Shown here piece after piece: positions 1,679 through 64,000 of a stretch of DNA of 64,000 bases. The notes under the pieces were generated by a model, which saw nothing but the letters and a program-made list of their open reading frames with translations, was not told the DNA's origin and did no database searches. This DNA is from an uncultured bacterium (GTDB lineage: Bacteria; Verrucomicrobiota; Lentisphaeria; Victivallales; UBA1829), in the NCBI GenBank assembly GCA_902802585.1, contig CADCMR010000004.1, positions 62,001-126,000 on the forward strand. Reading direction: 5' to 3'. Position numbers and translations under genes: made by a program. Within the stretch, counting starts at the first letter, position 1. Every line of letters starts with the position of its first letter.

Positions 1679-1712
1679 GGTGTGCTACGGGCGCTTCGAA
1701 AGAAGCACCCCC

Positions 1713-2399: not shown

Positions 2400-2401
2400 G
2401 A

Positions 2402-4119: not shown

Positions 4120-4140
4120 AATAGGGAACAGCTCCGGGAT

Positions 4141-5487: not shown

Positions 5488-6362
5488 TTGGACTCCTCCT
5501 TTTTCGGTGCGGGCGCGGCTTTCGGCGCGGGTTCAACCGGCTTCAGCGCGGCGATCTTGCGGTGGATTTCTTCGACCTGGAGCGCGCCGGTGGGACATTT
5601 GACCTGTTCGACGAAAGAGGCTTCGGGCGGGTTGGAGTAGTTCACGCGGACGAGACCCGCCTGCATCTGCATGTGGTTTTCGTTGGTGCGGATGCACTTC
5701 TTGCAGGCGAGGCACGGGTTCTTGCAGAACTTGCGGCGTTTTGCGGGCTTCTCCAGCGAGTTGCAGTAGACGTGGATCGGGGCGGATGCCGGGACCAGGC
5801 GGATCAGCTTGCGCGGGCAGACGTTCACGCACTTGCCGCAGGCGCGGCAGAGATCGGGATGGACAACCGCCAGACCGTCGCGGATTTCGATCGCGCCGAA
5901 CGGGCATGCACGGGCGCAGGAGCCGTAGCCGAGGCAGCCGAACCGGCAGGCTTTTCCGCCGCCGCCCGCAACGATGGAGGCTGAGCGGCAGTCGAGGATG
6001 CCGTTGTAGTCGGCGGCGCGCGTGGAGCGCGAGAAGCTGCCGGAGCAGAAGACGACCGCGGTCATCTTTTCCTTCTTTCCGGCGGCCTTGCCTGTGACTT
6101 CGGCGATCTTCGCGAGCATGGCGTCGGAGCAGGCGGAGCATCCGGAGGGATCGGCGTCCTTCGTGACGATGGCGCTTGCGAAATCGGCGCAGCCGGCATA
6201 GCCGCAGCCGCCGCAGTTCGCGCCGGGGAGGAGTTCCTGGACCGCCTCAATCTTCGGGTCGGTCTGGACTTCGAATTTCTTTGCCGTGAAGCCGATGAGC
6301 GCGCCGAGGAGCAGCCCGACGGCGGCGACCACGGCGGCTGAAACGAGAATCGTGATCAACAT
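5484..6362 (-). CDS. rnfB: Rnf complex ferredoxin-accepting subunit RnfB (long form)
   Basis: Electron-entry subunit, thought to take electrons from reduced ferredoxin. The 292-residue product has one N-terminal membrane helix (residues 3-25), a NCGGCGYAGC cluster motif typical of the RnfB Fe-S domain, and several ferredoxin-type Cys sets (GSCARACP, CRACGKCVNVCP, CLACKKC). A C-terminal Ala/Pro/Lys-rich tail follows. This long, multi-cluster form resembles RnfB of strict anaerobes more than the short proteobacterial one. GGGAGG precedes the start. Confidence 0.94.
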   Translation of the reverse strand: MLITILVSAAVVAAVGLLLGALIGFTAKKFEVQTDPKIEAVQELLPGANCGGCGYAGCADFASAIVTKDADPSGCSACSDAMLAKIAEVTGKAAGKKEKMTAVVFCSGSFSRSTRAADYNGILDCRSASIVAGGGGKACRFGCLGYGSCARACPFGAIEIRDGLAVVHPDLCRACGKCVNVCPRKLIRLVPASAPIHVYCNSLEKPAKRRKFCKNPCLACKKCIRTNENHMQMQAGLVRVNYSNPPEASFVEQVKCPTGALQVEEIHRKIAALKPVEPAPKAAPAPKKEESK

Positions 6363-6378
6363 GATTGCCGCGCCTCCC

Positions 6379-6987
6379 TCACTTGACCAGACCGGAGAAG
6401 CCCATGAACGCCATGGCGAGGATGCCGGCGGTCACGAGCGCGATCGCGGTGCCTTCCATCGCCTTCGGGATGCGGGCGATGGCGAGGCGTTCGCGGATGC
6501 TGGCGAAGAGCAGGAGCGCGAGGCCGAAGCCGACGCCGGTGCTGAAGCCGAACACGGTCGAGGAGATGAGTCCGCGCGACGCGTCGGCGTTCAGTTCCGC
6601 CGCACCAAGCACGGCGCAGTTTGTCGTGATGAGCGGCAGGTAGATGCCGAGCGAGACGTACAGCGACGGGCTGAACTTCTTCAGCAGGATCTCGACGATC
6701 TGGACGAGCGCCGCGATGACCACGATGAAGAGCAGGATGCGCGTGAACGACAGGTCGACCTCCTGACCGTTGATGGTGAAGGTCCGCGTGACCAGGAACC
6801 TGTTGAACAGCGCGGTGACAAACGATGCGAGCGTCATTACGAAGATGACGGCCCCGGACATGCCGAGCGCGGTTTCGATGCGCTTGGAGACGCCGAGGAA
6901 CGGACAGATGCCGAGGATGCGCGAGAGCACCACGTTGTTCACGAGGATCGCCCCCACGGTCAGCACCAGTATTTCGTTGGTATCCAT
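6379..6987 (-). CDS. rnfA: Rnf complex membrane subunit RnfA
   Basis: Integral membrane subunit of Rnf, inverted-topology partner of RnfE. The 202-residue product has six hydrophobic segments and RnfA/NqrE-type sequence (VNNVVLSRILGICPFLGVS near the N-terminus, TTNCAVLGAAE in the middle). It is the first rnf gene, 55 bases downstream of the cyclophilin gene. No promoter stands out in that gap, so the rnf genes may be read from the promoter ahead of the cyclophilin gene. Confidence 0.94.
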   Translation of the reverse strand: MDTNEILVLTVGAILVNNVVLSRILGICPFLGVSKRIETALGMSGAVIFVMTLASFVTALFNRFLVTRTFTINGQEVDLSFTRILLFIVVIAALVQIVEILLKKFSPSLYVSLGIYLPLITTNCAVLGAAELNADASRGLISSTVFGFSTGVGFGLALLLFASIRERLAIARIPKAMEGTAIALVTAGILAMAFMGFSGLVK

Positions 6988-7042
6988 GGCTTGTACCTGT
7001 TTCTATTTGGAAAGTTGAACTTGGATTGAGCTTGGCGCGGAA

Positions 7043-7561
7043 TTACTTCGCAGCGATCCGGGCGACGCGGAAGATGGTGATCGGCGCGGACGGGACGTCC
7101 TGGTAGAAGCCCATGGTGGTCGTCGGAATCGCTTCGATCGCGCGGACCACGTCCATGCCGTCCGTGACCTCGCCGAAGACGCAGTAGCCGAAGCCGCGCG
7201 GGGTCTCATCCTGGTGGTCGAGGAAGGTGTTCGGGGCGGTGTTGATGAAGAACTGGCTGGTGGCGCTGTCCACGACGGATGTGCGCGCCATGGCGATGGT
7301 ACCGACCTTGTTCGAGAGGCCGTTTCCGGCTTCGTTCTTGATCGGGGCGCGCTTGGACGGGACGTCGTTGAGTTTGGCGTCGAGACCGCCGCCCTGGATC
7401 ATGAATCCCTTGATGACGCGGTGGAAGACGGTCCCCGCGTAGAAGTTGTCGTCGACGTAGGCGAGGAAGTTCGCGACGGTGACGGGCGCTTCCTTCTCGA
7501 AGAGCTCGACGGTGATGTTCCCGAGGGAGGTCTCGATCAGGACTTTCGTGTTTTCAGACAT
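7043..7561 (-). CDS. Cyclophilin-type peptidyl-prolyl cis-trans isomerase
   Basis: Cytoplasmic cyclophilin (PpiB type) that speeds proline isomerisation. The 172-residue product is essentially one cyclophilin domain with no signal peptide. Visible active-site motifs are FHRVIKGFMIQGG (about residues 47-59, catalytic Arg and Phe-x-x-x-Gln) and SQFFINTAPN. Its start is preceded by AAAGGATC and by a well-formed promoter at 7609-7636. It is the first gene of a run that continues into rnfABCDGE and dinG on the same strand. Confidence 0.93.
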   Translation of the reverse strand: MSENTKVLIETSLGNITVELFEKEAPVTVANFLAYVDDNFYAGTVFHRVIKGFMIQGGGLDAKLNDVPSKRAPIKNEAGNGLSNKVGTIAMARTSVVDSATSQFFINTAPNTFLDHQDETPRGFGYCVFGEVTDGMDVVRAIEAIPTTTMGFYQDVPSAPITIFRVARIAAK

Positions 7562-7608
7562 GGTTGATCCTTTGGGTTAATGAGTGTGAAAAAAGGCAGC
7601 ATACCATA

Positions 7609-7636
7609 AATATAGTACACGAAAACGTTTTTTCAA
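7609..7636 (-). promoter_or_regulatory. Sigma70-type promoter for cyclophilin/rnf
   Basis: Read on the minus strand: TTGAAA, 16-base spacer, TATATT. It lies about 50 bases ahead of the cyclophilin start and matches the form seen at many other host genes here. Confidence 0.6.
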
Positions 7637-7773
7637 TATGAAGAAGATTATTTTCAGGCATTTCGGGGCGTAAAATAACGACCGGAACACCGATGGCGGC
7701 GGTCCGTCCGATGGACGCAACGCCGTGATGCGGCGAATCCGGCGACGGCGAATTCTGTTTTTTTGCAGGGTAA

Positions 7774-8340
7774 TCAGTCGCCGGGATAGCGCGCAAGCAG
7801 TTCCTTCGCCGCGGACAGCACGTCCCCGACGTCAACCGCCTGCGGGATTTTCTCGATATTCTGGTGGACGCCGTGGCCGGTGCGGACCAGCGCGACGCCC
7901 CGGCATCCGGCGTTGAGCCCCGCCTCCAGGTCGGATTCCTTGTCGCCGATCATGAAGGATGATGAGAGGTCGATATCAAGGTCTTTCGCGGCGCGCAGGA
8001 ACAAACCGGGCTTCGGCTTGCGGCAGTCGCAGTCGATGGCGTATTCCGGGACGACACCCTTCTTGTGGTGGTAGCAGTAGTACGTCGCGTCGATGTGCGC
8101 GCCTTCCGCCGCTAGCAGTTCGTTCATGCGGGCGTCGACCGCCTTCAGGTCCGCCTCGGTGAAATAGCCGCGGGCGATGCCGGACTGGTTGGACACTACG
8201 ATGACCAGGCGTCCGGCGTCGTGCATGGCGCGGACCGCCTCGGCTGCGAACGGGCACAGCCGGACGAGCGCCGGATCATGGATGTAGTCGGCTTCCTCGA
8301 TGATGACGCCGTCGCGGTCGAAAAAACATGCCTGGCGCAT
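7774..8340 (-). CDS. gmhB: D-glycero-D-manno-heptose-1,7-bisphosphate 7-phosphatase (HAD family)
   Basis: HAD phosphatase that removes the 7-phosphate of heptose bisphosphate on the way to ADP-heptose, the donor for LPS core and protein heptosylation. The 188-residue product has the HAD motifs FFDRDGVI (nucleophile Asp, residues 6-13), VVSNQSGIARG, and MIGDKESDLEAG. The GmhB zinc-loop style residues C-x-H and CDCRKPKPG are also visible. AGGAG lies 9 bases before the ATG. It starts 21 bases after the RND pump gene, so it looks like the third gene of the efflux operon, an unexpected partner. The heptosyltransferase at 13051 would use its product pathway. Confidence 0.88.
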   Translation of the reverse strand: MRQACFFDRDGVIIEEADYIHDPALVRLCPFAAEAVRAMHDAGRLVIVVSNQSGIARGYFTEADLKAVDARMNELLAAEGAHIDATYYCYHHKKGVVPEYAIDCDCRKPKPGLFLRAAKDLDIDLSSSFMIGDKESDLEAGLNAGCRGVALVRTGHGVHQNIEKIPQAVDVGDVLSAAKELLARYPGD

Positions 8341-8361
8341 GGGCGGGAACTCCTGTTTGCG

Positions 8362-11300
8362 TTACGCGGGCTGCACGCCCTGCGGCGCGGAACCGGACGC
8401 GGTTGTCTTCTGCTGCTTCTTGAGAGCCTTCTTCTCGCGGGCTCGTTCACGCCAGCCTTCCCATCCGGCGTAGAACGCGGGGATGAAGAAGAGTGTGATG
8501 AGCGTGGAGCTGGTGAGGCCGCCGATCACGGCGCGGGCGAGGGGCGCCTGGGATTCACCGCCTTCGCCGAGCCCCAGCGCGAGCGGCACGAGACCGAGCA
8601 CGGTGGTGAGCGTGGTCATCAGGATGGGGCGCAGGCGGCGGCGTCCGGTTTCGCGGACGGCGATGGCGAGCGGGAGCTTGTCGCGGCGGCGCAGGAGGTT
8701 CGCCGTGTCGACGAGCAGGATGGCGTTGTTCACGACGATGCCGGCGAGCATGACGCATCCGATGAAGGACTGGATGTTGAAGGTGGTGTAGGTGAGGAAG
8801 AGCATGAGGATGACGCCGATCGCCGCGAGGGGCACGGAGAACATGACGATGAGCGGGTCGATCAGGGACTCGAACTGGCACGCCATGACCATGTAGACCA
8901 GAACGAGGGCGAGGGCGAACGCCATACCGAGCTCGCGGAAGGTTTCCTGCTGGTCCTCGTAGTCGCCGGAGAACGAGATTGTGAAGTCGGCGGGCAGCGG
9001 ATAGAGCGCCTTGATCTTCTCCTGCATTTCCTCGACGGCGGACCCGAGGTCGCGGTCGTAGAGGTTGGCGGAGACGGTCAGATTGCGCTGCTGGTTCTTG
9101 CGCTCAATGGTGACGGGGCCGAGGACCTTTTCGGTGGTGAGGAAGTTGCGGAGGGCGACGTTTTCGCCGTCGCCGTTGCGGACGGTGAGGTCGAGGAGCG
9201 AATCGGTGGTCATGTACTTTGCGTCCTTGACTTTCACTAGGATCTTGTACTCGTAGCCGTTTTCGCGGAAGTAGTTCGCCTGGGTTCCGGCGAGACCGAG
9301 GCGGAGGCAGTTCGCGATGGTGTTCACGTCGACCTTCATCTTGCCAGCCTTTTCGCGGTCGATGATCACGCGGTTTTCCGGCATTCCGATGTCGCGGGAG
9401 AGCTTGGCGTCGGTCACGCCCTCGACGGTGAGGCAGAGCGCCTGCACACGGCGGGCGAGGTCTTCGGCGGTCTCGAAGTCGTATCCGCGGATGTCGATCT
9501 GGATGGCATCGCCGCCCGCGCCGCGTCCGCCCATGAAGGATTGCGCGGCGCGCACGCGGAAGATCGTGCCGGGGAGCTGGTTGAGCTTTTTGCCGAGGCG
9601 TGCTGCGATGGATTCGATGCCTTCGCTGCGTTCTGTCCTCGGGACGAGCTTCAGGTTGTAGCTCGCCTTGTGGCCGCCGGAGGAGTTCCATGTGGACGCG
9701 CCCGCGGAGGAGGTCCAGTGCTTGAGGTCATCTGAGATTTCCGAGCGGATGATCTGTTCGGTGGCGATGACGGTCTCGTTGACGAACTCGGGACCGGTGC
9801 CGACGGCATCCTCCATGTTGATGCGGAGCTGACCTTCGTCGGTCTTCGGCATGAGCTCGGTGCCGATGAGCGGGGCGATCACGAAGCAGAAGGACAGGAT
9901 GGCGATGCTGAAGATGATGGTGATGAGCTTGTGTCGCAGGACGGAGTCGAGCGCGTCGGCGTAGTAGTCGCCGAGTGCGTCGAAGCCGCGTTTCGAGATG
10001 CGGGCGAACCAGGCGATAAACCCGGTCTTCTTGGATTCGCTTTCGGTCAGCATCTGTCCGCAGAGCATCGGGACGATGGTGAGCGCGGACGCGAGCGAGC
10101 AGAGCAGTGCGAACGCGATCACGTACGCGAGCTGCTTGAACATGACGCCCGCCATGCCCTTCATGAAGACCATGGGCAGGAAGACGGCGACGGTGGTGAG
10201 CGTACTGGAGATGAGGGCGCTGGTGACTTCATTGGCGCCCTGCCTGGCGGCCTCCTTGCGCGGCAAGCCGCCGTCATGCAGTCGCACGGTGTTTTCGAGC
10301 ACCACGATGGAGTTGTCGACGAGCATTCCGACGCCGAGCGCGAGGCCGCCGAGGGTCATGATGTTCAGCGTGAATCCGCAGAAGTAGATGAGGGCGAAGG
10401 TGGCGACGATGGACAGCGGGATGCTGATGGCGATGATGAGCGTGCTTCGGACGTTGCAGAGGAAGATGAAGAGAATCAGGATGGCGAGGAGACCGCCGGA
10501 GACGGCGGTGTTCGACACGTTGTTGATGGATCGCTGGATGTACTCGGATTCATCGGTGACTGGGACGATGTTAAAGCTGCCGGCGAGTTCGGTGTTGATC
10601 TTTTCGAGTTCCTTGCGCACCTCGCGGGCGACGCCGACGGTGTTGGAGCCGGACTGCTTGTAGACCTCAATGTAGATGCCGGGCTTGCCGTTGATGCGGA
10701 CGAATCGCGTGGCTTCCTCGTGGGTGTCGACCACTTCGGCGACGTCGCGGACGCAGATCGCGGAGCCGTCGGGTCCGACCGTAAGGAAGAGGTCGCGGAT
10801 TTCGTCGAGGTTGCTGAACGTGCCGATGGTGCGGAGGCGGACGTCGAGTGTGCCGGACTTCTGGTTGCCGGCGGGCGTGGTGACGTTCGCGCTGCGGAGC
10901 TTGTTGAGGATGTCGGTGAGCGGGATGCGGAGGAGCTTCGCCTTGTCGACGTCGAGCAGGACGTGAATTTCGCGGTCGTAGCCGCCGCTGACGTTCGCGC
11001 TGGCGACGCCCTCGACGCGCTCGAAGCGGTAGACGACGCTGTCCTCGAGGTACTTCTTTGCCTTCGTCAGGTCCATGTCCGTGCTCACGCCCAGGCGCAT
11101 GATCGGCATGGAGGCGGAGTTGAATCGGATGAGCATCGGGCGGTCGACGTCGTCCGGGAGCATTTTCAGCGCGCGGTCGATTCGGTCGCGGATGTCGGAG
11201 ATGGCGTTGTCGAGGTTGGTGCCCCAGGTGAAGCGCACGATGACGGAGCTGGTTTCCTCGGAGCTGATGGATGTAATCTCCTCAATGCCGGTGACGGCGC

Positions 11301-51770: not shown

Positions 51771-51860
51771 GGAGAGATGGCCGAGTGGTCGAAGGCGCAG
51801 CATTGGAAATGCTGTATAGGGGCAACTCTATCGTGGGTTCAAATCCCACTCTCTCCGCCA
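51771..51860 (+). tRNA. tRNA-Ser (anticodon GGA)
   Basis: 90 bases with encoded CCA. Acceptor GGAGAGA/TCTCTCC, anticodon loop TTGGAAA (GGA), class II variable arm, and T-arm with GGTTCAAATCC. An integrase gene follows 111 bases downstream, so its 3' end is the likely attachment site of the mobile element. Confidence 0.97.
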
Positions 51861-51971: not shown

Positions 51972-53342
51972 ATGGTTTGCACAAGAAACGGAAGACGAAT
52001 GAAGAAAATGAACACGCTGCAAGGGAAATTAAGGCCGCGAGGAAAACAAGGGTTCTATACGTACAGATTGATTGTATCGAATGGTGTACGTCAGGATTTC
52101 CCGCTCAAAACCGCAGATATCGAAGAAGCCATTCAGAAAGCAACTGAACTGGACAAGGCATATCTTGCCGACACACATGAGGAACTGGTAGCTCAGATGA
52201 GCGCGATCCGCGGTTTCTCCAAACGGGCCGAGAACATTTCGTTTGAGGAAGCATGGGAAAAATACCAGGTTCATCCCGAACGAGCAATGCCGCATACCGT
52301 AAGTGAACAGAACGCGTATCAAGGCACTTTTGAGGAATTTGCTCAGTTTGCTTCTCATCCGAGGGGGGCACGCAAAAAGAGTCTCACGGTCGTGACGAGC
52401 ATTGCCGAAGTTACACCACAGATCTGTGAAGCGTTCTCCGCCTACCTCAAGACCACCATGCTTGCGGTCGATACGCACAATCGGAAAATCAAGCGACTTC
52501 GCAAAATCTTCGACTGCCTCAAGGATTACTACGAAGGCGAAAACCCTTTTCGGTCAAAAACTCTTTTGCGAAGTGAGCGTGAGGAGCAAGGTACCGTTGT
52601 GCATCGTCAGGCATTCACCAAGGAACAGGAAGATGCTCTGCTTGCCGTGTTGTCGGACTCCGCTCCTGAGCACAAGCTTATGAACAAGGCCGAAATGCGC
52701 ATCGTGTACATCATCGGCATGTTTACAGGGCAACGCCTTAAAGACTGCGTCCTGCTCCAGTGGCAGAATATCGACATGGAGAAACGTCGTATCTGGGTGA
52801 AGCAGTTCAAAACGGGTAAGGAAGTAACCATCCCGATAGCTCCTGAGCTTTACGATGCCCTGGTTGAAGCGAAGGAATGGAAATGCGATCAGTACGTCAC
52901 GCCCAAGTGCGCTGCACGCTACAACAAAACGAATGCTGAGGGGAAGAATGTTGGCAATAACCTCATCGACATAGATGCGCTCAGGCCGATTCGCTGGATC
53001 GGTCTTGAACCCGCCGTTGCGGTCCCAGGCCGAAAAAAGAAGATGACCGTTTACGGCTTCCACTCGCTTCGACACAGCTTCGCAAGTTTTTGCGCTGAGG
53101 CTGGCGTTCCCAAGGCAACATTGCTTTCTATCCTTGGAACAGAATCCGAGATCGCGGACAAGTATTACACTCATGTCGGAAACGATAGCCAGCAAAAAGC
53201 GATTGAGGCGATCAGCAATCGCAGCAGTTCCACCGCTCAGGAAAAAATAAATCGTATTCGTACCCTGCTTGAAGCGAATCAACATGAAATCGCTTCCAAC
53301 AGCCTTCTCATACAAATCAACACCATACTGAAGGAGTCTTAA
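51972..53342 (+). CDS. Tyrosine site-specific recombinase (integrase)
   Basis: 456 residues, start at the ATG at 51972 with GAGG 9 bases upstream. It has an N-terminal Arm-type region, a core-binding domain (about 75-200, FEEAWEKYQ, VTPQICEAFSAYL) and a catalytic domain. Catalytic residues seen: Arg 255 in TGQRLKD, Lys in FKTGKEV (about 278), HSLRHSF (His 364, Arg 367), and Tyr 398/399 in DKYYTHV. The His/Trp usually found in the G-H/W position before the tyrosine is GT here (ILGTESE), a change from the norm. It sits beside tRNA-Ser(GGA), its likely target, and is followed 3 bases later by the 331-residue gene. Confidence 0.9.
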   Translation: MVCTRNGRRMKKMNTLQGKLRPRGKQGFYTYRLIVSNGVRQDFPLKTADIEEAIQKATELDKAYLADTHEELVAQMSAIRGFSKRAENISFEEAWEKYQVHPERAMPHTVSEQNAYQGTFEEFAQFASHPRGARKKSLTVVTSIAEVTPQICEAFSAYLKTTMLAVDTHNRKIKRLRKIFDCLKDYYEGENPFRSKTLLRSEREEQGTVVHRQAFTKEQEDALLAVLSDSAPEHKLMNKAEMRIVYIIGMFTGQRLKDCVLLQWQNIDMEKRRIWVKQFKTGKEVTIPIAPELYDALVEAKEWKCDQYVTPKCAARYNKTNAEGKNVGNNLIDIDALRPIRWIGLEPAVAVPGRKKKMTVYGFHSLRHSFASFCAEAGVPKATLLSILGTESEIADKYYTHVGNDSQQKAIEAISNRSSSTAQEKINRIRTLLEANQHEIASNSLLIQINTILKES

Positions 53343-53345
53343 AAA

Positions 53346-54341
53346 ATGGACAAAATGAAAGACGAATCAAGCAATACTAAAAAGAAAAACGACAATAACG
53401 TACCCGATGCAATACCAATCACGGACAATCCAATTTTTGATTTTTTAATCCATCCTGAAATAAACTGTTTTTTACTTAAAACACTTATTTCTCTGACAAA
53501 AGAAATTGAGACTGAAAAAGAAAGGGCATTTTTGGATAAAATAGGTAAGACTATTCTTGCTGGTGCAAAGGATCCTTGCATTATGAATCAAAAAGAATTA
53601 TTTGAAATGAGGATACATAGACCGAAAGAGAAAGAAGCCATATACAAATTGAATGATGAGCTTAACAATGCAGAAAGTCTTGAAGAAATAGAAAACTGCC
53701 TAAAAAAAGCCGAGAGAGATAATATTGCTGTTCGTGAAGAATATGTTGCATTTTTCCATTTCGTAAACAATTTGAAAAGAATGAAAAAAACAATTGAATC
53801 CATAGGAAAAAATACACAAGATCTGTTTGCGTCTGCTATACGGTCTATGTTATCTTCATTTGATTTGGCGGAAATTGAGTGTTCTCTGGAATACCAGGCA
53901 ATGACTAGTAAAAACTTCCAGGAGCATAACGAAAAAAAAGAAAATGAACTATTATTTAAAATTTCTAACTTCCAACAATACCTGTTTGAAATAGAATCAT
54001 TCTGGAGTTCAGAAAACAAGAAAAGAGTATGCAGTTTTGAACTTGCTAGTAAACATGTTTTTAATGACCATATAAATAAGAATGATAAGAAACTTAAGAT
54101 GCTTTTTAGCAGACATTATAAGATCGACTGCACAGAACCGGAAAACAAACAGTTTTGTATCAACAAATTGAAGGAACTCACAATGGAATATCGGAACAGA
54201 GTCCTGGCAAAGCATCCAGATTATGAGAATAAACCTCAAAAACGCAAACCGCGGTCAGACGAATCTCGCCAAAAATCAAGCGAAGGGCAAAAAGAAGCAA
54301 TTGAGCGGAAAAAGAACGAATGCAAGAAAAGCTCTGAGTAA
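53346..54341 (+). CDS. Unknown AT-rich protein, probably co-transcribed with the integrase
   Basis: 331 residues, start ATG at 53346 with AAGGAG overlapping the integrase end. No family is recognised. It is highly charged, Lys/Glu/Asn rich and mostly predicted helical, with coiled-coil-like stretches (about 85-140 and 175-200), no signal peptide and no membrane segment. The C-terminal 35 residues are strongly basic (KPQKRKPRSDESRQKSS). Codon use is far more AT-rich than the neighbours, which points to a different origin. Position next to the integrase suggests an excision, regulatory or accessory role, but nothing in the sequence shows it. Confidence 0.7.
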   Translation: MDKMKDESSNTKKKNDNNVPDAIPITDNPIFDFLIHPEINCFLLKTLISLTKEIETEKERAFLDKIGKTILAGAKDPCIMNQKELFEMRIHRPKEKEAIYKLNDELNNAESLEEIENCLKKAERDNIAVREEYVAFFHFVNNLKRMKKTIESIGKNTQDLFASAIRSMLSSFDLAEIECSLEYQAMTSKNFQEHNEKKENELLFKISNFQQYLFEIESFWSSENKKRVCSFELASKHVFNDHINKNDKKLKMLFSRHYKIDCTEPENKQFCINKLKELTMEYRNRVLAKHPDYENKPQKRKPRSDESRQKSSEGQKEAIERKKNECKKSSE

Positions 54342-54616: not shown

Positions 54617-54796
54617 TCACAGCTTCGGGATTTTCGGGAATCCGATTCCGAGCTGGCCGAGCAGAAGCCCGGCTATGGCACTGAGGACGAAGCCGCCGAG
54701 ACCGTTGAAGATGCTGCTGTCATTCTGCTGCGTCTGCTGCGGCGGCATGATATAGACAGGCTACGCGGGAATGTTGTTGGTGTTGTTTTTGGACAT
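54617..54796 (-). pseudogene. Small hydrophobic protein gene with in-frame amber codon 12
   Basis: ATG at 54796 has a perfect AAGGAGG 6 bases upstream. The frame reads MSKNNTNNIPA, then TAG (54761-54763), then PVYIMPPQQTQQND and a Gly/Leu-rich hydrophobic stretch (GLGGFVLSAIAGLLLGQLG), ending with TGA: 58 residues if read through. TAG could be a one-base change of CAG (Gln), which would suit the Q-rich context. The inner ATG at 54748 has no ribosome site. It is last in the minus-strand operon. Either a nonsense mutation, a sequencing error or suppression is possible; TAG is a normal stop in host genes. Confidence 0.6.
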
Positions 54797-54884
54797 AGGG
54801 TCCCTCCTTGTGATTTTTGAGGTTTGTTTGAGTTTGAATGAGGCGGGGCAGCTGTGCCTCCGCCTCGGTTGAATTGGTTTTAGT

Positions 54885-56594
54885 TCAGACAGAGATCGGC
54901 AACTCGATTTCTTCCTGTTCTTCCCCGGAACAGGATTCCGTCGACTGCATACCGAGCAGGCACGGAGCCTTGGAGACGTCGAGCAACCGGAAGCAGTTGA
55001 AGTAACGTTCGGCACCCTTGGCCATTTCAGGCGGGAACTCCTGTGCTATGTCGCTCGGCTTGCGAATCCAGCCGAGCTTACGGGCGACAGCAACGTTCAA
55101 CGCCTTCATCAGCTCGATATTGAACTTAATGTGAACATTGCTGTTGAGGTAGCACCGGAAGGCAAAGAGGACCGTTTTGTTGTCGTCCATGTAGACCGTG
55201 CCACGCTTCCCCCAGGTTTCCGGCATCTGGATGATCCCTGCCTTGAAACCGAGACTGAACGCTACAGCACAGACGTCCTCGATTTTGCGCTGACAGGCAT
55301 ACTCGATGTGGTTATCCCATGAGTGCCATCCTTCACCCGGCAACGCGTATTCCGTACAGATGATCCGGTAGTCGAGCGTGTAATGCGTATTCTTCTTCGC
55401 ATCCGAGCTGTACCGCGAACAGAACTCCTCGAAGACGCGCTTGTTGGAAACGTAGTTCCGCACGTTCTCCTTGGACGACAGTCCGATGAACAGGTCGATC
55501 ATCTGCTGCTCGGTGAACTTGTTGTAGTTCTTGATGACCCAGACGATCATCGCGTACAAGTTCGACGGCGTGAAGTCCACCTGCTTCAGCATGGAAAAGT
55601 CGCTGAGGATCTTGTTGCGGGATTCCGAGGTCAGACGCGAAGTGATTTCATCCAGGCAGTCGAAAGCTGCCTGCCAGTAAAGATTCTTCAGGCCCTTGTA
55701 CCTCTTCTTCAAGGCTTCCTTGACGTTGTCCTTATGGACGCCGATTGAGGCGAGAAGTTCGGTATCCAAGCTCGCGATCTTCCTGAAGTGTTCGTACAGC
55801 TGCTTTCGGGCTGCTTCGTAGCCGTCGCAGAGGATTTCCACCTTGTTCTTTCCGGTGGTCAGGGCTCGTTTCAGGGCAGCTCGTGCTCTCTCCTCCTCGT
55901 CGTTCTCCCAGCTGTGTTTGTTGTGGTCCGGTTCATCGGCCATTTGGAAAAGCTCGTCGAACATGTAGTCGAATCCGGCATCAGCACCCATCCAGCTTTT
56001 GTCGATGTGGAGGATGTCAACCTTTGCTCTCGCATTGCGCTCGGCATTCAGGAAATCCGCATGACCGAGCACGCTGACAAGTTTTGTGCCGAACGGAGCT
56101 TTCAACGACCTCAACGCGAGCTGAATCGCCTTGCTCTGTTTCCAACGGCTCGGGATGATGAGGAAGATGTCGTCGCAGTTGCTTTCGAGGATAATACGCC
56201 TCGTCCACTCCTCGTATTCCGAATACGGCGGGTTGCAGAAGATCGTGTCCACCTCTTTGTCGATGAGTGTAGCCTCGTTGAAGTCAGTGCCGAGCACGAT
56301 CACATCCGGGTCGAGCCTGTCGATCAGAATGCGACTTTTCTCGATGACGTAATATTCGTAGATGTCCACGGACGAACGGTCCCCTGCTTCTCGATTGAGT
56401 TCGTGGACCCATTTGCGGAAGTCGCATTTGCCGCAGCCGATGTCGAGAACTTTTCCGAAACGACAATGGCCGGAACGGTTGTCGCTTTGGAATCTCCAAA
56501 TACGACGGACCATATCGCATGTGGTCGGATAAAACTCGAAGTCTTCTCCGGCCTTTTTGAGCTCGACGATCAGCTCGTTCATTTGCTTTGTCAT
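54885..56594 (-). CDS. Adenine-specific DNA methyltransferase with DUF4942-like C-terminus
   Basis: 569 residues. The N-terminal part is a SAM-dependent methyltransferase: VLDIGCGKCDF (about residue 48, SAM-binding motif I) and the catalytic N-P-P-Y in TIFCNPPYSEYEEW (about 120), typical of N6-adenine enzymes. The region from about 255 on is the DUF4942-type domain found in phage and plasmid methyltransferases. A short acidic tail ends the protein. No restriction enzyme is adjacent, so it is probably an orphan methylase that protects or marks the element. It follows the DUF932-like gene by 81 bases. Confidence 0.85.
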   Translation of the reverse strand: MTKQMNELIVELKKAGEDFEFYPTTCDMVRRIWRFQSDNRSGHCRFGKVLDIGCGKCDFRKWVHELNREAGDRSSVDIYEYYVIEKSRILIDRLDPDVIVLGTDFNEATLIDKEVDTIFCNPPYSEYEEWTRRIILESNCDDIFLIIPSRWKQSKAIQLALRSLKAPFGTKLVSVLGHADFLNAERNARAKVDILHIDKSWMGADAGFDYMFDELFQMADEPDHNKHSWENDEEERARAALKRALTTGKNKVEILCDGYEAARKQLYEHFRKIASLDTELLASIGVHKDNVKEALKKRYKGLKNLYWQAAFDCLDEITSRLTSESRNKILSDFSMLKQVDFTPSNLYAMIVWVIKNYNKFTEQQMIDLFIGLSSKENVRNYVSNKRVFEEFCSRYSSDAKKNTHYTLDYRIICTEYALPGEGWHSWDNHIEYACQRKIEDVCAVAFSLGFKAGIIQMPETWGKRGTVYMDDNKTVLFAFRCYLNSNVHIKFNIELMKALNVAVARKLGWIRKPSDIAQEFPPEMAKGAERYFNCFRLLDVSKAPCLLGMQSTESCSGEEQEEIELPISV

Positions 56595-56675
56595 GAGCTT
56601 GTCCTTGTGTTTGAAAACGCCGGAGGGAGGTCATCCCTCCGGCTGTAACAGTTTTGTGCTTGGATGCGTTCAGAT

Positions 56676-57392
56676 TCAGGCGAAGATCGCGGCTTCCCGT
56701 CCGTCCAGACCGAAAGCACGGTTCAACGCGAGGTAGGAATGATCCACGCGCTGAGGCGAGTATTTCTTGACGGTTTCCGTAAACGCGTTCATCAGGCTCC
56801 ATCGCGTCGGCTCTTTGAACTCTTCGTGCGAGGGTTCCTTGTACTCGCGGTAGACCGGAAGGATGTCACAGGAATTGATAACGCCAAGCTCGGCAGCTCG
56901 CACGATACAGCTCCGGGCCTCGTCATCATTCTTCAGGTACTCGTCCTTCAGGTCTTCGCACCGCGTCTCGGTCGTCAGGAAATCGTCTTCGAGCGAAGCG
57001 ACAGCACGGTCGATCAGCTCGGCAAGGTCAATGCCGCTGGTGTGGCGACGCTTGATGACCGTTGTGCCGCCGAACGCCATATTTGTGCAGACGCAGACCA
57101 CGATGCCCGCAGACAGCCCGACAGCAAAGGATTTGTCGTGGCTGTTGCGGATGCCGATGCAGCGATGCCACTCCGGCGAAGACGAGCGTGAAATCTCCAT
57201 CACGCCGAACATCTTCTGTCCTTCACGTGCGAGACCGAACTTTTCGCCTTCGATTTCCCAGTCGTGAGCTCGGACGACCTTGGTCACCGCCTCGATCACG
57301 TCGATGTGCGGAACCGGACGCCAGGTGTCGGTCGAATTGGGAGTGTCGATACGTGCGACCTCATCGCGACTGACGAACTTGCCTTCTTGCAT
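56676..57392 (-). CDS. DUF932-like phage/plasmid protein
   Basis: 238 residues from the ATG at 57392 (GGGA 6-7 bases upstream); the earlier ATG at 57404 has no ribosome site but would also fit. The central block around RSSSPEWHRCIGIRNSHDKS and AVGLSAGIVVCVCTNMAFG is characteristic of the DUF932 group, which is common in phages and conjugative elements, often near RecT/RecB-like genes. No catalytic function is known to me. It lies between the nuclease and methyltransferase genes. Confidence 0.7.
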   Translation of the reverse strand: MQEGKFVSRDEVARIDTPNSTDTWRPVPHIDVIEAVTKVVRAHDWEIEGEKFGLAREGQKMFGVMEISRSSSPEWHRCIGIRNSHDKSFAVGLSAGIVVCVCTNMAFGGTTVIKRRHTSGIDLAELIDRAVASLEDDFLTTETRCEDLKDEYLKNDDEARSCIVRAAELGVINSCDILPVYREYKEPSHEEFKEPTRWSLMNAFTETVKKYSPQRVDHSYLALNRAFGLDGREAAIFA

Positions 57393-57407
57393 AATCAGTC
57401 CCATACA

Positions 57408-58199
57408 TCACGCTGCCTTTCTGTGGATGGCCTTACAGCGGCTGCCGTAGGCGCATTCAGCACAATTCATGCAGGATTCGATCGGAAGGAAGATGCCGCT
57501 GTTGACGGCCTTCTCGATCTTTCCGGCGAGGTAGACGAAACGGTCGAAATCATCGTTCGTTCTGAGCGTGTAGAACTGATGATGAGCAGGCGTTTTCGCT
57601 TTCGTGAACACATCGAACCGGAAAACAGGATTCACGCCATACTTCTTCATGTAGGCGTAGGCGAACGTCGTAGCCTGAAGATCACGGTCGGCTTTCCCTT
57701 TCGGCCAGTTCGTCGCTGCCGTTTTCCAGTCGCAGATTGTTTCGTCCCCGCCGTCCACAGTAACGAGGTCAAATTCCCCGACCAGCGGTTTGCTAAGTCC
57801 GGGCACGTTCACGCTGAATGCTTCAGCGACCGATTTAACGGTGTAGTCGTCCGGCCATTCGGCAATCGCAAGTTCAAGCATGTCGCAGCCTCGCTTGTCC
57901 CAGAACCAGTAGTCCTCGCCCTCTTTGTAGGTCAGGTTCTCGCAGACCTCGGTTTCGCCTTTGAAGTAGACGGCGAAATCTTCCTTCGCGTCCACGATGG
58001 TGTAGTTCGTTCCCTTCATGGCACGTTCGCTGAGCACCAGATGGATGGCTCGACCGAACGGGATGCTGATGGGAGTCCGTTCAACCTCGGCGTGTTCGAT
58101 GTACCGGAAGTAATAGCGCATCGGACATGTGAGGTAGGTCTGCAATGCGCTGTACGACCAGTGAGGCGCATCGCGCATGGTTTCGATTTCACGTTCCAT
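57408..58199 (-). CDS. PD-(D/E)XK nuclease, RecB/Cas4-like with Fe-S cysteines
   Basis: 263 residues from the ATG at 58199. It opens with WSYSALQTYLTCPMRYYFRY, the usual first motif of the RecB/AddB/Cas4 nuclease fold. The catalytic core is GEFDLVTVD (metal Asp, about 175) and ICDWKTA (Asp and Lys, about 190). One Cys near the N-terminus and CMNCAECAYGSRC at the C-terminus match the four-Cys Fe-S staple of AddB/Cas4. It probably degrades or trims DNA ends in recombination with its neighbours. It starts 4 bases after the preceding small gene. Confidence 0.85.
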   Translation of the reverse strand: MEREIETMRDAPHWSYSALQTYLTCPMRYYFRYIEHAEVERTPISIPFGRAIHLVLSERAMKGTNYTIVDAKEDFAVYFKGETEVCENLTYKEGEDYWFWDKRGCDMLELAIAEWPDDYTVKSVAEAFSVNVPGLSKPLVGEFDLVTVDGGDETICDWKTAATNWPKGKADRDLQATTFAYAYMKKYGVNPVFRFDVFTKAKTPAHHQFYTLRTNDDFDRFVYLAGKIEKAVNSGIFLPIESCMNCAECAYGSRCKAIHRKAA

Positions 58200-58203
58200 G
58201 AGG

Positions 58204-58668
58204 TCACGCCGCCTTTCCGCTGAGCTCGTCGATTGCGCGGCTGCACTGTGTTTTGGAGAGGCTTTCGAGCGAGGGAACGTTGAACTTGTTTTTGATCTGG
58301 TCGGGGGAAACTCCATATTGCTTTGCGAGGTCGAGGAGGTATTTGATCTGCTTGGGAGACGCCGGAGCATCAGAGGTCGTTCCGTTCTTCTTGTTGTAGG
58401 CGGGTTTCGCGGCGTTCTGAGGCGTGGTGTCGTACAGCCCCGGCTGAGATGCCGGATTGTTCTGCACCATCTGCTGAGGCGCGCTTCCATGGAGTTCCGC
58501 TTCGACAGACGCGCGGACGAGATCGAAGGTCTCATGGATCTTCGCGTTGAGCTGATCCTGCGTGAGACCGTCAGGGAGTTCCACCTCGACCGAGGCGTGG
58601 AAAGACTGGCTGCTGTATTGGGAGTCAGCCGGGACCTTTTTGGAATAGGATGCGTTGAGTTTGAGCAT
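58204..58668 (-). CDS. Small element protein A, shared C-terminal module
   Basis: 154 residues, ATG at 58668 (AGGA 10 bases upstream). N-terminal part: a beta stretch and an amphipathic helix (ASVEVELPDGLTQDQLNAK). A Gln/Pro/Asn-rich linker (about 70-105) follows, then a C-terminal helical module beginning ASPKQIKYLLDLAKQYGV. The same module ends the next two genes upstream. Such S-x-K-Q helical tails occur on phage recombination and single-strand DNA proteins as I recall them. A DNA-annealing or binding role beside the nuclease is a reasonable guess, not shown. Confidence 0.7.
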   Translation of the reverse strand: MLKLNASYSKKVPADSQYSSQSFHASVEVELPDGLTQDQLNAKIHETFDLVRASVEAELHGSAPQQMVQNNPASQPGLYDTTPQNAAKPAYNKKNGTTSDAPASPKQIKYLLDLAKQYGVSPDQIKNKFNVPSLESLSKTQCSRAIDELSGKAA

Positions 58669-58757
58669 GGTGGTTTGTCCTTTCGGTTGAAGGTAAAAAA
58701 GGCGCATCCCCGGCAGCTTGCGCCGCCGAGGATGCTGATATGTTTTTTTGTTTCGTG

Positions 58758-59129
58758 TTACGGTTTTTGTTTCTGGTCAACGGTTTGGATGATTTCTGCA
58801 ATGACTCCCAGTGCATTACCGGCAGTGAGCTCTTCGATGCAGCCAACTTCATATTTTGTGCAGACCTCAGATTCCGGAATTTGTTCTTTTTCCAGAATTT
58901 TCTTGAATGTCTGAGCTTGCTTCTCGGAGATCGTCTGCCTCAGCCGCGCGTCAATGGGGTCGGGGTCTTTTTTGGCCCTTTCGCTTTCCAGCTTCAGATG
59001 CAACGGGATACTCTCTTGATTTTCCCTGGCATCCAGAAGAATGGCAAGCAACATGAAGAGCGTTCCGAGGTCCACCTTGAATCTGATCGTGTCACAGCTC
59101 GGTGGCGAGATTAAAACTTCAAGTGTCAT
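58758..59129 (-). CDS. Small element protein B, shared C-terminal module
   Basis: 123 residues, ATG at 59129 with AAGGAA 6 bases upstream. A short beta-like N-terminus (MTLEVLISPP) and a hydrophobic helix (about 20-35) precede a charged stretch and the module ISEKQAQTFKKILEKEQI...ELTAGNALGVIAEI. The module aligns without gaps to proteins A and C. Function unknown. Confidence 0.65.
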   Translation of the reverse strand: MTLEVLISPPSCDTIRFKVDLGTLFMLLAILLDARENQESIPLHLKLESERAKKDPDPIDARLRQTISEKQAQTFKKILEKEQIPESEVCTKYEVGCIEELTAGNALGVIAEIIQTVDQKQKP

Positions 59130-59162
59130 AGTCGATTCCTTTATGTAAGATTTTGAGAGCTG

Positions 59163-59624
59163 TCAGTATTGTTCCTTTTTGATAATTATCCATGCCATCT
59201 TGCCAGAAAGGTTTTCAACACAATCAACACCATGTTTAGCACAAAAGTCCTTTTCTGATATTTCACGGGCTTTTAGATTAACATGGATCAGGCCAGCTTG
59301 TTTTTTGGAAATGGTTCCTGGCGAAGAGGTATCTTTTTTGGGGGGGTGGGATAGAGCATTATTCTGTTGTGAAGTATTCCATCTGCTGTCTGGCGATGGT
59401 TCTTCTCGTGCAGGGGGTGAGGCGCGGGAAATATCCTGAACTTCGACTTCCGAACTTGAAAGTTGTCTCGTTTGCGGTCTCGCCTGAAACTCCGTGATAG
59501 CTTCCTGAATCTGAGAAAGCATACCATGGAGATCATGCGTCGCATTTCCTTCTTCAGCGAGATGGATTGTGATGGAAGGGCGGTCATTCTGAATAGAATA
59601 AATTATTTCAGCTTTTTTTGGCAT
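59163..59624 (-). CDS. Small element protein C, shared C-terminal module
   Basis: 153 residues, ATG at 59624 with AAGGAGGT 5 bases upstream, the best ribosome site of the operon. The N-terminal strand-helix part (EIIYSIQNDRPSITIHLAEE, then a helix) is followed by a Ser/Pro/Gln-rich linker and the module ISKKQAGLIHVNLKAREI...VENLSGKMAW. With proteins A and B it forms a set of three adjacent paralogues. Confidence 0.68.
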   Translation of the reverse strand: MPKKAEIIYSIQNDRPSITIHLAEEGNATHDLHGMLSQIQEAITEFQARPQTRQLSSSEVEVQDISRASPPAREEPSPDSRWNTSQQNNALSHPPKKDTSSPGTISKKQAGLIHVNLKAREISEKDFCAKHGVDCVENLSGKMAWIIIKKEQY

Positions 59625-59745
59625 AATTACCTCCTTATTTGCTGATTTGTACATGTTTCATATAATGACCACAATTCCGGCCACAATAATCCCAACGGAT
59701 AATAATGATCCATTTCTCTTTGTTGAGGGAAAGACGAGGGAGGAA

Positions 59746-61278
59746 TCAGAATCCGCTGGCAGTGCGGATGCGTTCGATGGTACGCCGGGTCTGTTGGTAC
59801 TCGCGTTCTTTCTGGCGCTGAGCAAGAGCGACCTCGCGGACCTTACGGGCCATGGCAGCGGAGTCGTCGAACATGACTTTGATTTTGGCCTTCATGTCTT
59901 CGATGTTGGCGAGCAGTTCGTCGAGCGGGTTCAGCTCTTTTTCGGGTTCCTGGTTCTGGGCGGACGTCTGCACGGGAGCAGACACGATGCGGGTGATGGT
60001 GTTTTCGTTCATCGGGGTGTTTTCCTTTCGGGTATTTGTGGTTTTTGAGGTGGGGTTTTCCTGAGAATGAGGCGGAATCTGCTTGGTAACGGATTCCGTG
60101 GTTTCGGGAACGTGCTGAGGTTCATTCTGCTCAGGTTGAACGGGAGTTTCTTCGACCATTTGATTGGAAACAGCCTGTTCCGATTCCTGCTCATTTTGAG
60201 CTTGCGCCTTTTTGGTGATGATGGGCATGGCGATGTACTGACCGGAGCCACCAGTTCCGACAATCGGCCCATAGGCGTCGTTGAGTTCGATCTTCCGATG
60301 ACCTGCATCCAGCAGACGCAGAAGGAATTCTTTCCGGACACAGAAGCTCAGTTCATTCCAGTTCGGATCGAATTCAGCGAGGGTGCTGAACAGCATTCCG
60401 TTCGAGCTTTCGAGATGGAGATTATCCGGGACTTCGGGGAGACGGCTCAACTTGACAGCATTGTTGTGTTCCTTGTCGTCCGGGATGCTCTTCAGGTAAC
60501 GCTGAAGCCGTTCGGCGCGGTCGTCCTGGAAGCTCACGTAATGCGTGGCAGCCGTTCGTTCGGGTACGACGCGCATCCAGTTCGGATAGTTTTCCCGAAT
60601 TGCTTTGGCGCGCCAAGTCCACGCACCAAGTGTAAGCTCGAAGTACGTGTCCTCGTCTTTCTGCCAGGTCGAGAGACGACCGGAATCGCCAAAGGCTTTC
60701 GTCGCAAGCAGAGCGAGAGGGAACGGGATCGTAACACTCCCGCTCGTTTCGAGCTTGAGCGGGATGTTCGAAAGCTCTTTGCCGTTTGTTGCGGTGAAGC
60801 CGTATCCGCTGATATTGATTCCACCAAGAGCCTTGCGGATGTCCGTGCCCTTGTCCGTGATCGGCGCAAGGAGAGACAGCGCGGATAACGTATCAGCTGG
60901 CAATTCCGTGACACAGATGTCCTGATCCGGGATCTGTTCCTTCGGCGGGAAGCTACCTTTAACGGGTGCGAGCTTCACATCGTCGATAAAGACCTCACCG
61001 CAGTCAATCTCCATCTTCATCGTCTTGTTCTTGCAGTTGCGAACCATCTGACGGAACTGCTCGAACTCCACGATGGTTGCCGGGAAATCATCTTCCAAGT
61101 CGGCAAACAGTCGGAATTCGATCTGCTCGATCACGTTTCGGGTTCTGAAGTAAAGCATGTTCGCTTTGCCTTCGATTTCGATCCCCTGATACGCCTTAAT
61201 CAAGGACGTCCGAGAGACCAGTTTTCCCAGAGCCGACAGGGCTCCGGCCAACGAGTTTTTGTTTACGGGGATTTCCAT
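59746..61278 (-). CDS. Sliding-clamp (DnaN)-like protein with coiled-coil C-terminal extension
   Basis: 510 residues from the ATG at 61278, where GGAGGA lies 4-5 bases upstream; the ATG at 61290 lacks one. Residues about 1-345 look like the three-domain beta clamp. Domain I has FPATIVEFEQFRQMVRN, domain II DIRKALGGINISGYGFTATNGKEL (the R-x-x-L-x-G and T-D/N-G pattern), and domain III closes with GSGQYIAMPI, like the clamp C-terminus Y-x-x-M-P. A Gln/Pro/Thr-rich linker (about 350-425) and a helical, charged tail (about 445-510) follow, which normal clamps lack. An in-frame ATG at 60012 with AAAGGAAA upstream could also give an 88-residue C-terminal product. First gene of the element operon. 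Confidence 0.75.
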   Translation of the reverse strand: MEIPVNKNSLAGALSALGKLVSRTSLIKAYQGIEIEGKANMLYFRTRNVIEQIEFRLFADLEDDFPATIVEFEQFRQMVRNCKNKTMKMEIDCGEVFIDDVKLAPVKGSFPPKEQIPDQDICVTELPADTLSALSLLAPITDKGTDIRKALGGINISGYGFTATNGKELSNIPLKLETSGSVTIPFPLALLATKAFGDSGRLSTWQKDEDTYFELTLGAWTWRAKAIRENYPNWMRVVPERTAATHYVSFQDDRAERLQRYLKSIPDDKEHNNAVKLSRLPEVPDNLHLESSNGMLFSTLAEFDPNWNELSFCVRKEFLLRLLDAGHRKIELNDAYGPIVGTGGSGQYIAMPIITKKAQAQNEQESEQAVSNQMVEETPVQPEQNEPQHVPETTESVTKQIPPHSQENPTSKTTNTRKENTPMNENTITRIVSAPVQTSAQNQEPEKELNPLDELLANIEDMKAKIKVMFDDSAAMARKVREVALAQRQKEREYQQTRRTIERIRTASGF

Positions 61279-61462: not shown

Positions 61463-61930
61463 TTACAACTTGGAACAGGCAAAAGCACGTTGATGCGATG
61501 GTAAAAGTCTTTGCTGTGTCGAAGGGACAAAAGGCATTCTGTTCATGGTATCAAAAAGATTCAATTTATCATTGGCAAGTGTTTCCATACATAAAGGCAT
61601 TTCAGCTATAAACTGGATAGGGAACGGAGAATACAGAGTCCATATGCGTTGGGCTCTTTCCGTAACATCATTCATGTCATTTCTGAAGTACCCGCTGACA
61701 ATCACTATTAGGTTATAGCATCCGCGAGTGGAATCAAAAGATCATGAATAGGCAGGACGGCTATTGGCACGTTTCAATGCGGACATAAAAGCGTTCAGGT
61801 AACGAGTAAAATTATAGTGATTCTCTAAACAAGGAAAAACATAAAGCCCAATTCTTGCTAGTCCGAAGCTGTTCAAATAACTTTCTATTAAGTTGCTGAT
61901 TTTTTCAAGTTGAATGATTTCATTTGTCAT
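61463..61930 (-). pseudogene. Disrupted ORF, possible YagK/YfjJ/Gp2-like relative (in-frame TGA)
   Basis: ATG at 61930 has a perfect AAGGAGGT. The frame runs 62 codons to TGA (61742-61744) and continues in the same frame for 92 more codons to TAA. Across the stop it shows a weak match to the 62216 protein: a strand ending in F-P near residue 29 (there L-P), a helix, then GCYNLIVIVSGYF at the place of the HHHMVLFLNG strand. The TGA could come from CGA by one change. The metal-binding His pair is absent, so it may be a decayed or regulatory relative. Alternatively these are two unrelated small genes. Confidence 0.45.
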
Positions 61931-62016
61931 GCTACCTCCTTGGTTATCGTGGATAATAGAATACATAGAATGTTGGATTTGAATTCGTAATGAAAATTAT
62001 GTCGCGATATATCCTA

Positions 62017-62215: not shown

Positions 62216-62851
62216 ATGAATTCCTACACTTATTCAAACAACTCTGTCTATCTTGAAATCTATAAAATGTTCAATAAGATACAGAACATCTATTACAACC
62301 TTTTAATACAGTCTCTTATCAAACATTGTAAGGTCTTTGTTATGAGAATAGATATACACCTTCCTCAAGATTTGGATCAAGGACTTATAATGATGTTTAA
62401 TCATCGTTTCATTGAGAAAGAAAAGATTGCAAAGAATGATCCTCTTTACCTCGTAGTCAGAGAACTCAGTTCAGAGGGTAAGATTCATCATCACATGGTA
62501 CTTTTCTTGAATGGGAACGTAACGAATAATACTTTTTATCATTTTGAATATGCCAGAACAGTCCTTAGAAACATCTGTGGAGATTATGGCAGCATCAATG
62601 AATGTAATAATGGACATAGAAACGGTATTATGATAGAACGTAACATGTTTTCTTCCTATGACTTGTATGAAGCCTTACGTCAAGTCAGTTATTTGGCAAA
62701 GATTGATCAGAAGGACAATGTTCCAGGTAAGACTTTCTTTTATTCCAAGATTCCTATTTCTGATCTCAGCAACGAAGATATAACAAATAATTTTCAGTTA
62801 TTGTTTCCAAATCTTTCCTTTGTCCCTGGAATGAAGTGGTTTGCGAATTGA
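62216..62851 (+). CDS. YagK/YfjJ/inovirus-Gp2-like replication protein
   Basis: 211 residues. The core matches the YagK_YfjJ_C group found in prophages, satellites and inoviruses: VFVMRIDIHLPQDLD (first strand R-x-D-x-H-x-P), KIHHHMVLFLNGN (His-rich strand like an HUH metal site), and LRQVSYLAKIDQKDN near the end. A role in replication start of a small element is likely from family and from the adjacent hairpin and iterons. The ATG at 62216 has only a weak AGAAAG site. Much more AT-rich than the clamp operon. Confidence 0.72.
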   Translation: MNSYTYSNNSVYLEIYKMFNKIQNIYYNLLIQSLIKHCKVFVMRIDIHLPQDLDQGLIMMFNHRFIEKEKIAKNDPLYLVVRELSSEGKIHHHMVLFLNGNVTNNTFYHFEYARTVLRNICGDYGSINECNNGHRNGIMIERNMFSSYDLYEALRQVSYLAKIDQKDNVPGKTFFYSKIPISDLSNEDITNNFQLLFPNLSFVPGMKWFAN

Positions 62852-63629: not shown

Positions 63630-64000
63630 ATGATGCTTGCGCGGCTGGAGGACTTCTGCGAGGCCACTGTCCCGCAGATTGCGGACGCCATCGGGCAGGA
63701 CTTCTGGGACGAAGCCACGCTGGTCGAACGCCGCAATATCGCCGAGTTCCTGGTCGCTAAGGTTACGCTTTACGTCGACAGGTTTGAGCTGGAGATCAAG
63801 GCGGACGGCATCAGCGCCTTCAAGGACTATATCGACCACGAAATGAAGGAGGAATCGGCGAAGACCGAGATGCTCCCCAACGGGAACGTGCTCGTGAGCG
63901 TTCCCTTCGACATGCAGGAAAAACGGAAAGGCAAGTTCCTCATTCTGCCGGACGGCGAGGTCACGGACAAGAGCCGGACTGCATTTCTGATGGCGGTTGC
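63630..64000 (+). pseudogene. C-terminal part of a large serine recombinase, runs off the window
   Basis: From the ATG at 63630 the frame reads like the back end of recombinase-family proteins: ARLEDFCEAT, then WDEATLVERRNIAEFLVAKV, LYVDRFELEIKADG, and the late block PNGNVLVSVPF...FLILPDGEV. The catalytic resolvase domain and the middle of the protein are missing. Upstream the frame is open only to 63507 and shows no recombinase sequence. It is GC-rich, unlike the AT-rich DNA just before it, so it looks like a truncated gene at a junction. The 3' end is outside the window. Confidence 0.7.

Follow-up and report, generated by a model that had tools for sequence, protein, structure and literature searches.

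Sliding clamps are shared hubs for replication and repair. Here we describe an operon led by a putative sliding clamp, located at 54617-61278 of the window (the whole stretch of 64,000 nucleotides that was analysed, from contig CADCMR010000004.1 of an uncultured Victivallales bacterium). Like the bacterial beta clamp DnaN, the lead protein shows homology over three domains, a partner pocket and a positive inner face; unlike DnaN, the clamps of its type (mobile clamps hereafter) form a separate clade, carry a long tail with a conserved coiled coil and are present in multiple copies on mobile elements. The phage processivity factors of PHROG 947 are matched by the window clamp at 2.3e-16, but sequence searches of 50,697 phage records (E 0.1) and scans of IMG/VR found no relative of the mobile clamp. 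The SynExo exonuclease-annealase pairs of phages (TP-84, vB_BpsM-61) also have a related nuclease in a recombination operon, whereas no annealase is recognisable here and a small protein (protein C), a DUF932 protein and the clamp fill the neighbourhood. Cas4 is a PD-(D/E)XK nuclease with four cysteines and has profile similarity to the nuclease of this operon; however, this nuclease stays under the curated Cas4 cut-off and its operon neighbours match no CRISPR families. Enterobacterial cryptic elements such as CP4-6 and CP4-57 carry YagK/YfjJ and DUF932 proteins (families PF11726 and PF06067, both matched here) and are not known to have a clamp of their own. The operon with its private sliding clamp is real, conserved and apparently undescribed in the open-access literature that we searched, with parts of known kinds in a combination that is new to us.

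When we searched with the single clamp sequence, we found that Pfam matches were marginal (E 0.1), that the PHROGs match was to phrog_947, 'DNA polymerase processivity factor', and that the match to the NCBIfam model dnan (2.4e-10) was under the curated cut-off. Among solved DnaN structures, the clamp family profile matched 4trt best (1.7e-23, with positions 1-344 of its 353 aligned) and E. coli beta with an E-value of 2e-14, and hhalign aligned the family with Verrucomicrobiota DnaN over 338 columns at 99.9% probability. By these alignments, the lead gene encodes a full-length, diverged relative of the beta sliding clamp DnaN in which all three domains align. In a tree that combines 61 mobile clamps with 20 DnaN sequences (one DnaN row, L163, was read in the wrong frame and gives a long branch), each set lies on its own side of a branch with support 100/100 and length 1.58, and the mobile clamp does not group with vertically inherited cellular DnaN. 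The mobile clamps form a separate clade and so did not arise by recent copying of host DnaN.

Pocket, DNA-face and dimer positions were assigned from the E. coli DnaN sequence and a list of its functional residues, both of which we assume to be correct. Among 61 mobile clamps, we found that the partner-pocket residues are kept at L155 (56 copies), T172 (55), G174 (57), L177 (58), P242 (60), V247 (as V or I in 59), M362 (54) and P363 (58), and the pocket is also host-like at positions 175 (K) and 346 (P). Such a pocket, shared with host DnaN by a separate ancient lineage, would fit a clamp whose main task is to draw host replisome partners off DnaN, so that the element gains or the host is slowed, while the other genes act independently. 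We consider this unlikely: it leaves the linkage of the clamp with C, the nuclease and DUF932, which persists even where gene order has changed, unexplained, and up to ten copies per genome would cost the host much if the clamp were a strong inhibitor.

The DNA-facing residues R24, R73 and R197 and several E. coli dimer residues are not conserved in mobile clamps, and R152 is kept in 58 of the 61. The net charge of the six inner-face helices has a median of +4 in mobile clamps, as compared to +3 in host DnaN and +6 in E. coli, and the mobile-clamp chain as a whole is negative; this inner charge is compatible with a dimeric ring loaded on DNA. The lack of conservation at the three arginines could instead mean that the clamp has become a protein scaffold and has ceased to encircle DNA, which we regard as very improbable given that the inner helices are still net positive, that R152 is nearly always kept and that strong purifying selection extends over the whole clamp part. 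Past the clamp part, 54 of 63 clamp frames extend by at least 82 residues, and most of the extended tails end in a conserved segment similar to NPLDEL..IE...KLK...DE...L.RKVKE....QKQKERE..QAKRAIERIR, a coiled coil of about 60 residues that appears as one long predicted helix at residues 451-508 in a low-confidence AlphaFold model. Short tails are mostly contig-end truncations or degraded copies, and nearly every full-length clamp has the tail with the coiled coil. We found no paper in the open-access literature on a tailed or mobile DnaN.

To describe the distribution of the operon, we numbered genomes with G and loci with L. The clamp was matched at 1e-5 in 46 of 100 relatives, ranging from 10 strong copies in one genome (G057) to weak matches on ordinary DnaN of about 365 residues, and a profile search of 289 Verrucomicrobiota genomes found more long-frame clamps in other families and classes. 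Profiles run on the first 46 loci recover the same series of clamp, C, nuclease and DUF932, and the methylase of the window operon is found in 5 of the 46. In 17 phylum-wide loci, the same four families are present again, with a changed order in L114, L116, L117 and L120. Overall, all four genes are present in 43 of 62 clamp loci, 41 of which follow the standard order, and at least three of the genes share a strand in 55; the counts are not independent, because a clamp was what marked a locus for inclusion and one genome could supply several loci. The four genes are found together in many genera and several classes, so that the set is no product of chance, and many of the exceptions are cut by contig ends. 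When the search was anchored on C, 27 of 60 genomes were recovered. A preliminary description of this DNA, made from its letters, had treated all eight genes of the window operon as one unit and had proposed a neighbourhood search: the neighbours do co-occur elsewhere, and a four-gene core recurs, but the remaining genes are variable extras. The constant core, as read from these profiles, is four genes (clamp, C, nuclease and DUF932), not eight, and they are linked across the phylum.

The core genes have ratios of nonsynonymous to synonymous substitution rates (dN/dS) of 0.06-0.20, strong purifying selection that includes the whole clamp part, from which we conclude that the core genes are used. 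Whole operons of 3.4 kb in G029 and G045, which belong to different families, share 91.8% DNA identity, which indicates recent transfer. In plasmids, we found no clamp, and DUF932 and the nuclease only as distant matches.

The nuclease matches PF12705 (PDDEXK_1) at 5e-21, with 76 bits against a cut-off of 22. Its motif residues in the window copy are H53, E142, D144, D157, K159 and Q175, and the catalytic positions together with four cysteines (25, 246, 249 and 255) are invariant in 27 of 27 aligned copies. The RecB/Cas4-like nuclease of the preliminary description is well borne out by the family match and by these invariant columns, and we assign the protein, on its motifs, as an iron-sulphur PD-(D/E)XK enzyme of RecB/Cas4 type. 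With the curated Cas4 model it reaches 36 bits against a cut-off of 65. The closest phage nucleases are annotated as RecB-like and adjoin ERF annealing proteins, and the nucleases of Geobacillus phage TP-84 and Bacillus phage vB_BpsM-61 match the nuclease family profile at 3.7e-29 and 3.8e-25. The similarity to Cas4 profiles (4e-11), the methylase in some copies and the reverse transcriptases of related elements, which match defence profiles, could together point to a defence or counter-defence island, in which these enzymes guard the host or the element against phages and the clamp recruits the nuclease to invading forks. Because defence models match none of clamp, C and DUF932 and match the methylase weakly, and because the methylase and reverse transcriptase lie outside the conserved core, we hold this to be quite unlikely.

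Protein C has an N-terminal domain, a variable linker and a conserved C-terminal domain, 'ASPKQIKYLLDLA..LT..QCS..IDE'. It has weak matches to phage families without known function and no other known relative; a resemblance to an ERF C-terminal domain was not supported by profile comparison. Two further small proteins of the window operon, A and B, had been described with C as three paralogs; the relationship holds, but mainly in the C-terminal 45 residues or so, and A and B are best read as extra C-like proteins outside the constant core. We looked for a clamp-binding peptide in the nuclease and in C and found scattered matches that are not conserved. Some C genes lie in another setting: a one-contig genome (G036) has five of them (L173-L177) without a clamp. 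In the two copies that were read, C is followed by a different, weak PD-(D/E)XK protein, with a CbbQ-type AAA ATPase and a DUF3150 protein downstream. In this genome C again precedes a PD-(D/E)XK-like protein, so that C and a nuclease stay paired, and the arrangement is apparently a second type of C operon. In the distant loci L116 and L112, DUF3150-like genes (and in L116 also an AAA ATPase) lie near the clamp and DUF932 is absent, so that other families may have a different set of partners.

The DUF932 protein matches PF06067 at 8.7e-13 (49 bits against a gathering cut-off of 23) and belongs to a common phage and plasmid family that has no known function. Relatives are present in phages at about 30% identity, and in Salinibacter phage M8CRM-1 a DUF932 gene stands just before a recombinase-type endonuclease, followed by a single-stranded DNA-binding protein and ERF. 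The predicted model (pLDDT, predicted local distance difference test, 77.7) matches other viral DUF932 models and has no significant match in the PDB by Foldseek. As a candidate Rad52-type annealase, DUF932 found no backing in that Foldseek search or in the comparison with ERF profiles (0.2%), and VIA-align rows with Z up to 7.7 reflect a common helix-sheet arrangement. In clamp-linked Victivallales copies, the protein ends in a near-constant [AP]x[IL][FW], sometimes QAAIF or QAALF, and nine copies fit a loose Q-containing clamp-binding motif, most of them at the C-terminus.

To define the element that carries the operon, we examined its ends in related loci. Direct repeats of a tRNA end bound three complete elements: L034 (56-bp repeat, 13.9 kb), L041 (51 bp, 15.2 kb) and L049 (21 bp, 18.6 kb). 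All three hold the core operon, an integrase and an HTH_17 gene that resembles an excisionase, the last with Pfam confirmation in L034. Among the variable genes are reverse transcriptases (L034 and L041), a DUF3987-like ATPase (L041) and a YagK gene (L049). In the window, the integrase starts 111 bp after tRNA-Ser(GGA), the tRNA end is probably the left boundary of the element, and up to the end of the window we found no right attachment repeat. The earlier proposal of a mobile element agrees with the integrase, the tRNA and the delimited relatives, and on these features we place the operon in a family of tRNA-integrated, integrase-bearing, multi-copy mobile elements of Verrucomicrobiota. The proposal that it is a 'self-contained' replication and recombination kit is not supported: when we read the lists of open reading frames (ORFs) of the three delimited elements, we recognised no DNA polymerase, clamp loader, strand-annealing protein, capsid, terminase or primase-polymerase, and there is no polymerase or clamp loader among the families common to the loci. 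The further proposal that the clamp replaces the host clamp or competes with it is hypothetical.

The sizes of these elements (14-18.6 kb) fit phage satellites, and together with the phage relatives of DUF932 and with phrog_947 as the best single-sequence clamp match they could suggest that the operon is what is left of a phage or satellite replication operon, or a minimal version of one, whose clamp would serve phage-style replication. This seems improbable to us because no capsid, terminase or primase-polymerase was recognised in the three delimited elements, and because we found no close relatives of clamp, C or nuclease in viral contigs and none of the clamp in phage records.

Reverse transcriptases (RVT_1) are present within or near several clamp elements: L034:14698-16107 (plus), where the gene adjoins the HTH_17 excisionase-like gene, L041:14117-15565 (minus), and also L043, L059 and L069. 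They could be separate defence or diversification genes. In L049, the region 698-8816 holds glycosyltransferase-like and membrane genes, read by eye, which suggests surface-sugar cargo.

Beside the clamp, the window has a Rep-like gene that the preliminary description did not include. In related loci, a gene of this YagK/YfjJ family often flanks the clamp. Its product in the window, which we class with the HUH Reps (inovirus G2P-like), matches PF11726 with 30.2 bits against a cut-off of 25.8 (a match to PF23343 is under the cut-off) and carries HxH (HUH) and YLAK motifs that are kept in neighbouring-locus copies; with these motifs, a rolling-circle type initiator is likely.

The window is part of a 2.61-Mb genome in 31 contigs, whose closest named relatives are the rumen Lentisphaerae/Victivallales assemblies RUG555, RUG12414 and Tb.RUG.336. 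All eight ORFs that had been reported next to the integrase, with a clamp-like lead gene, a DUF932 protein and a DUF4942 methylase among them, are present and intact at their places on one strand, and both of these last two matches lie above the Pfam curated cut-offs (Table 1). The operon reads towards tRNA-Ser(GGA), the integrase and a lone ORF. From the clamp to the last small ORF, the gaps are 121, 33, 89, 4, 3, 81 and 136 bp; C, nuclease and DUF932 are nearly abutting, as they are separated by 4 and 3 bp. The last small ORF (full frame 54617-54796) is shortened relative to L007, whose longer frame encodes Gln at the place of an in-frame TAG in this copy. The second YagK-family relative is split by a TGA, and would be either a fresh pseudogene or a sequence error. 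At 63630-64000 (plus), an ORF that runs off the window resembles, when read by eye, a serine recombinase in its C-terminal region; Pfam gave no match.

Table 1. Features of the element and its surroundings, in window coordinates.
Feature	Position	Strand	Evidence
Putative clamp, DnaN-type (residues ~1-355), with linker and coiled-coil tail	59746-61278	minus	PDB profile, hhalign, pocket, tail, tree
Protein A, C-like small protein with shared C-terminal domain of ~45 aa	59163-59624	minus	profiles, comparison with C
Protein B, C-like small protein with shared C-terminal domain	58758-59129	minus	profiles, comparison with C
Protein C, core gene	58204-58668	minus	present in almost every core locus
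PD-(D/E)XK nuclease, RecB/Cas4 type	57408-58199	minus	PF12705, invariant columns
DUF932 protein	56676-57404	minus	PF06067, predicted model, C-terminal ending
DUF4942 DNA adenine methylase, accessory	54885-56594	minus	PF13708 4e-15; NPPY motif (residue 121)
Small hydrophobic ORF, 43 aa from internal ATG	54617-54748	minus	ORF reading, comparison with L007
Rep-like protein, YagK/YfjJ family, divergent	62216-62851	plus	PF11726 5.2e-7; HUH motif IHHHMVL, tyrosine motif SYLAK
Second YagK-family relative without HUH motif	61466-61960	minus	TGA-interrupted here; open in L004-L009
Tyrosine integrase	51972-53342	plus	PF00589 1.2e-16; phrog_1 3.9e-38
tRNA-Ser(GGA), probable left attachment site	51771-51860	plus	tRNA call; identity with relatives generally ends just past the tRNA end
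Lone ORF of 331 aa that separates integrase and operon, without a family match	53346-54341	plus	found in no other locus

Taken together, the clamp homology, the pocket, the inner charge, the nuclease motifs, the core linkage, the pairing of C with a nuclease in G036, the ERF neighbours of the phage nucleases, the setting of DUF932 in phage M8CRM-1, the dN/dS values and the attachment repeats argue for an element-borne recombination and replication module that relies on the polymerase and the clamp loader of its host and serves the repair, recombination and copying of the element's own DNA, a reading to which we give an even chance. In such a module, the integrase would excise the element, Rep would nick the excised form and the host polymerase would copy it. 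The host clamp loader would put the element's clamp on element DNA, where the clamp would act as a hub that uses its pocket and tail to keep the other three core proteins at forks or at the ends of DNA; the loading and recruitment steps are inferred from general clamp behaviour and from conservation. The nuclease would resect ends, and C and DUF932 would handle the resulting single strands or the single-stranded intermediates left by the HUH Rep, with recombination, circularisation or repair of the element as the outcome. Where present, the methylase probably marks or protects element DNA. We also consider a stricter form, in which the tail holds nuclease, C and DUF932 so that resection and annealing take place only on DNA that bears the element's clamp, and C and DUF932 are new families that handle single-stranded DNA; this form is possible but doubtful.

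Several observations weigh against the host-dependent module and its mechanism. With a shallow alignment of seven near-identical sequences, AlphaFold modelled the clamp at pLDDT 37.6 and gave no usable fold, so that the three-domain claim rests on sequence profiles. The Rep-like gene was detected in only about a third of loci. Some sets of C and nuclease, with or without DUF932, have no nearby clamp (L180, where none is detectable, and L173-L177), and L179 has neither clamp nor nuclease. The C-terminal ending of DUF932 resembles a clamp-binding motif, but the usual Gln is absent in most copies, including that of the window, and the resemblance is only suggestive, as is the coiled-coil tail as the part that would hold partners. 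Neither Foldseek nor profile comparison linked DUF932 or C to Rad52 or ERF, and phage M8CRM-1 carries ERF besides its DUF932 gene. Finally, it is a prediction that the clamp binds its partners and acts as a hub, and the same holds for the functions given to C and DUF932.

Protein C is the best marker of the operon, which is compact enough for reconstitution, and the link between clamp and nuclease could serve recombination tools. Mobile elements that, as a whole lineage, have a tailed clamp of their own linked to a resection nuclease would give DUF932 and protein C a testable role and would show a parasite building its own hub on the machinery of its host.

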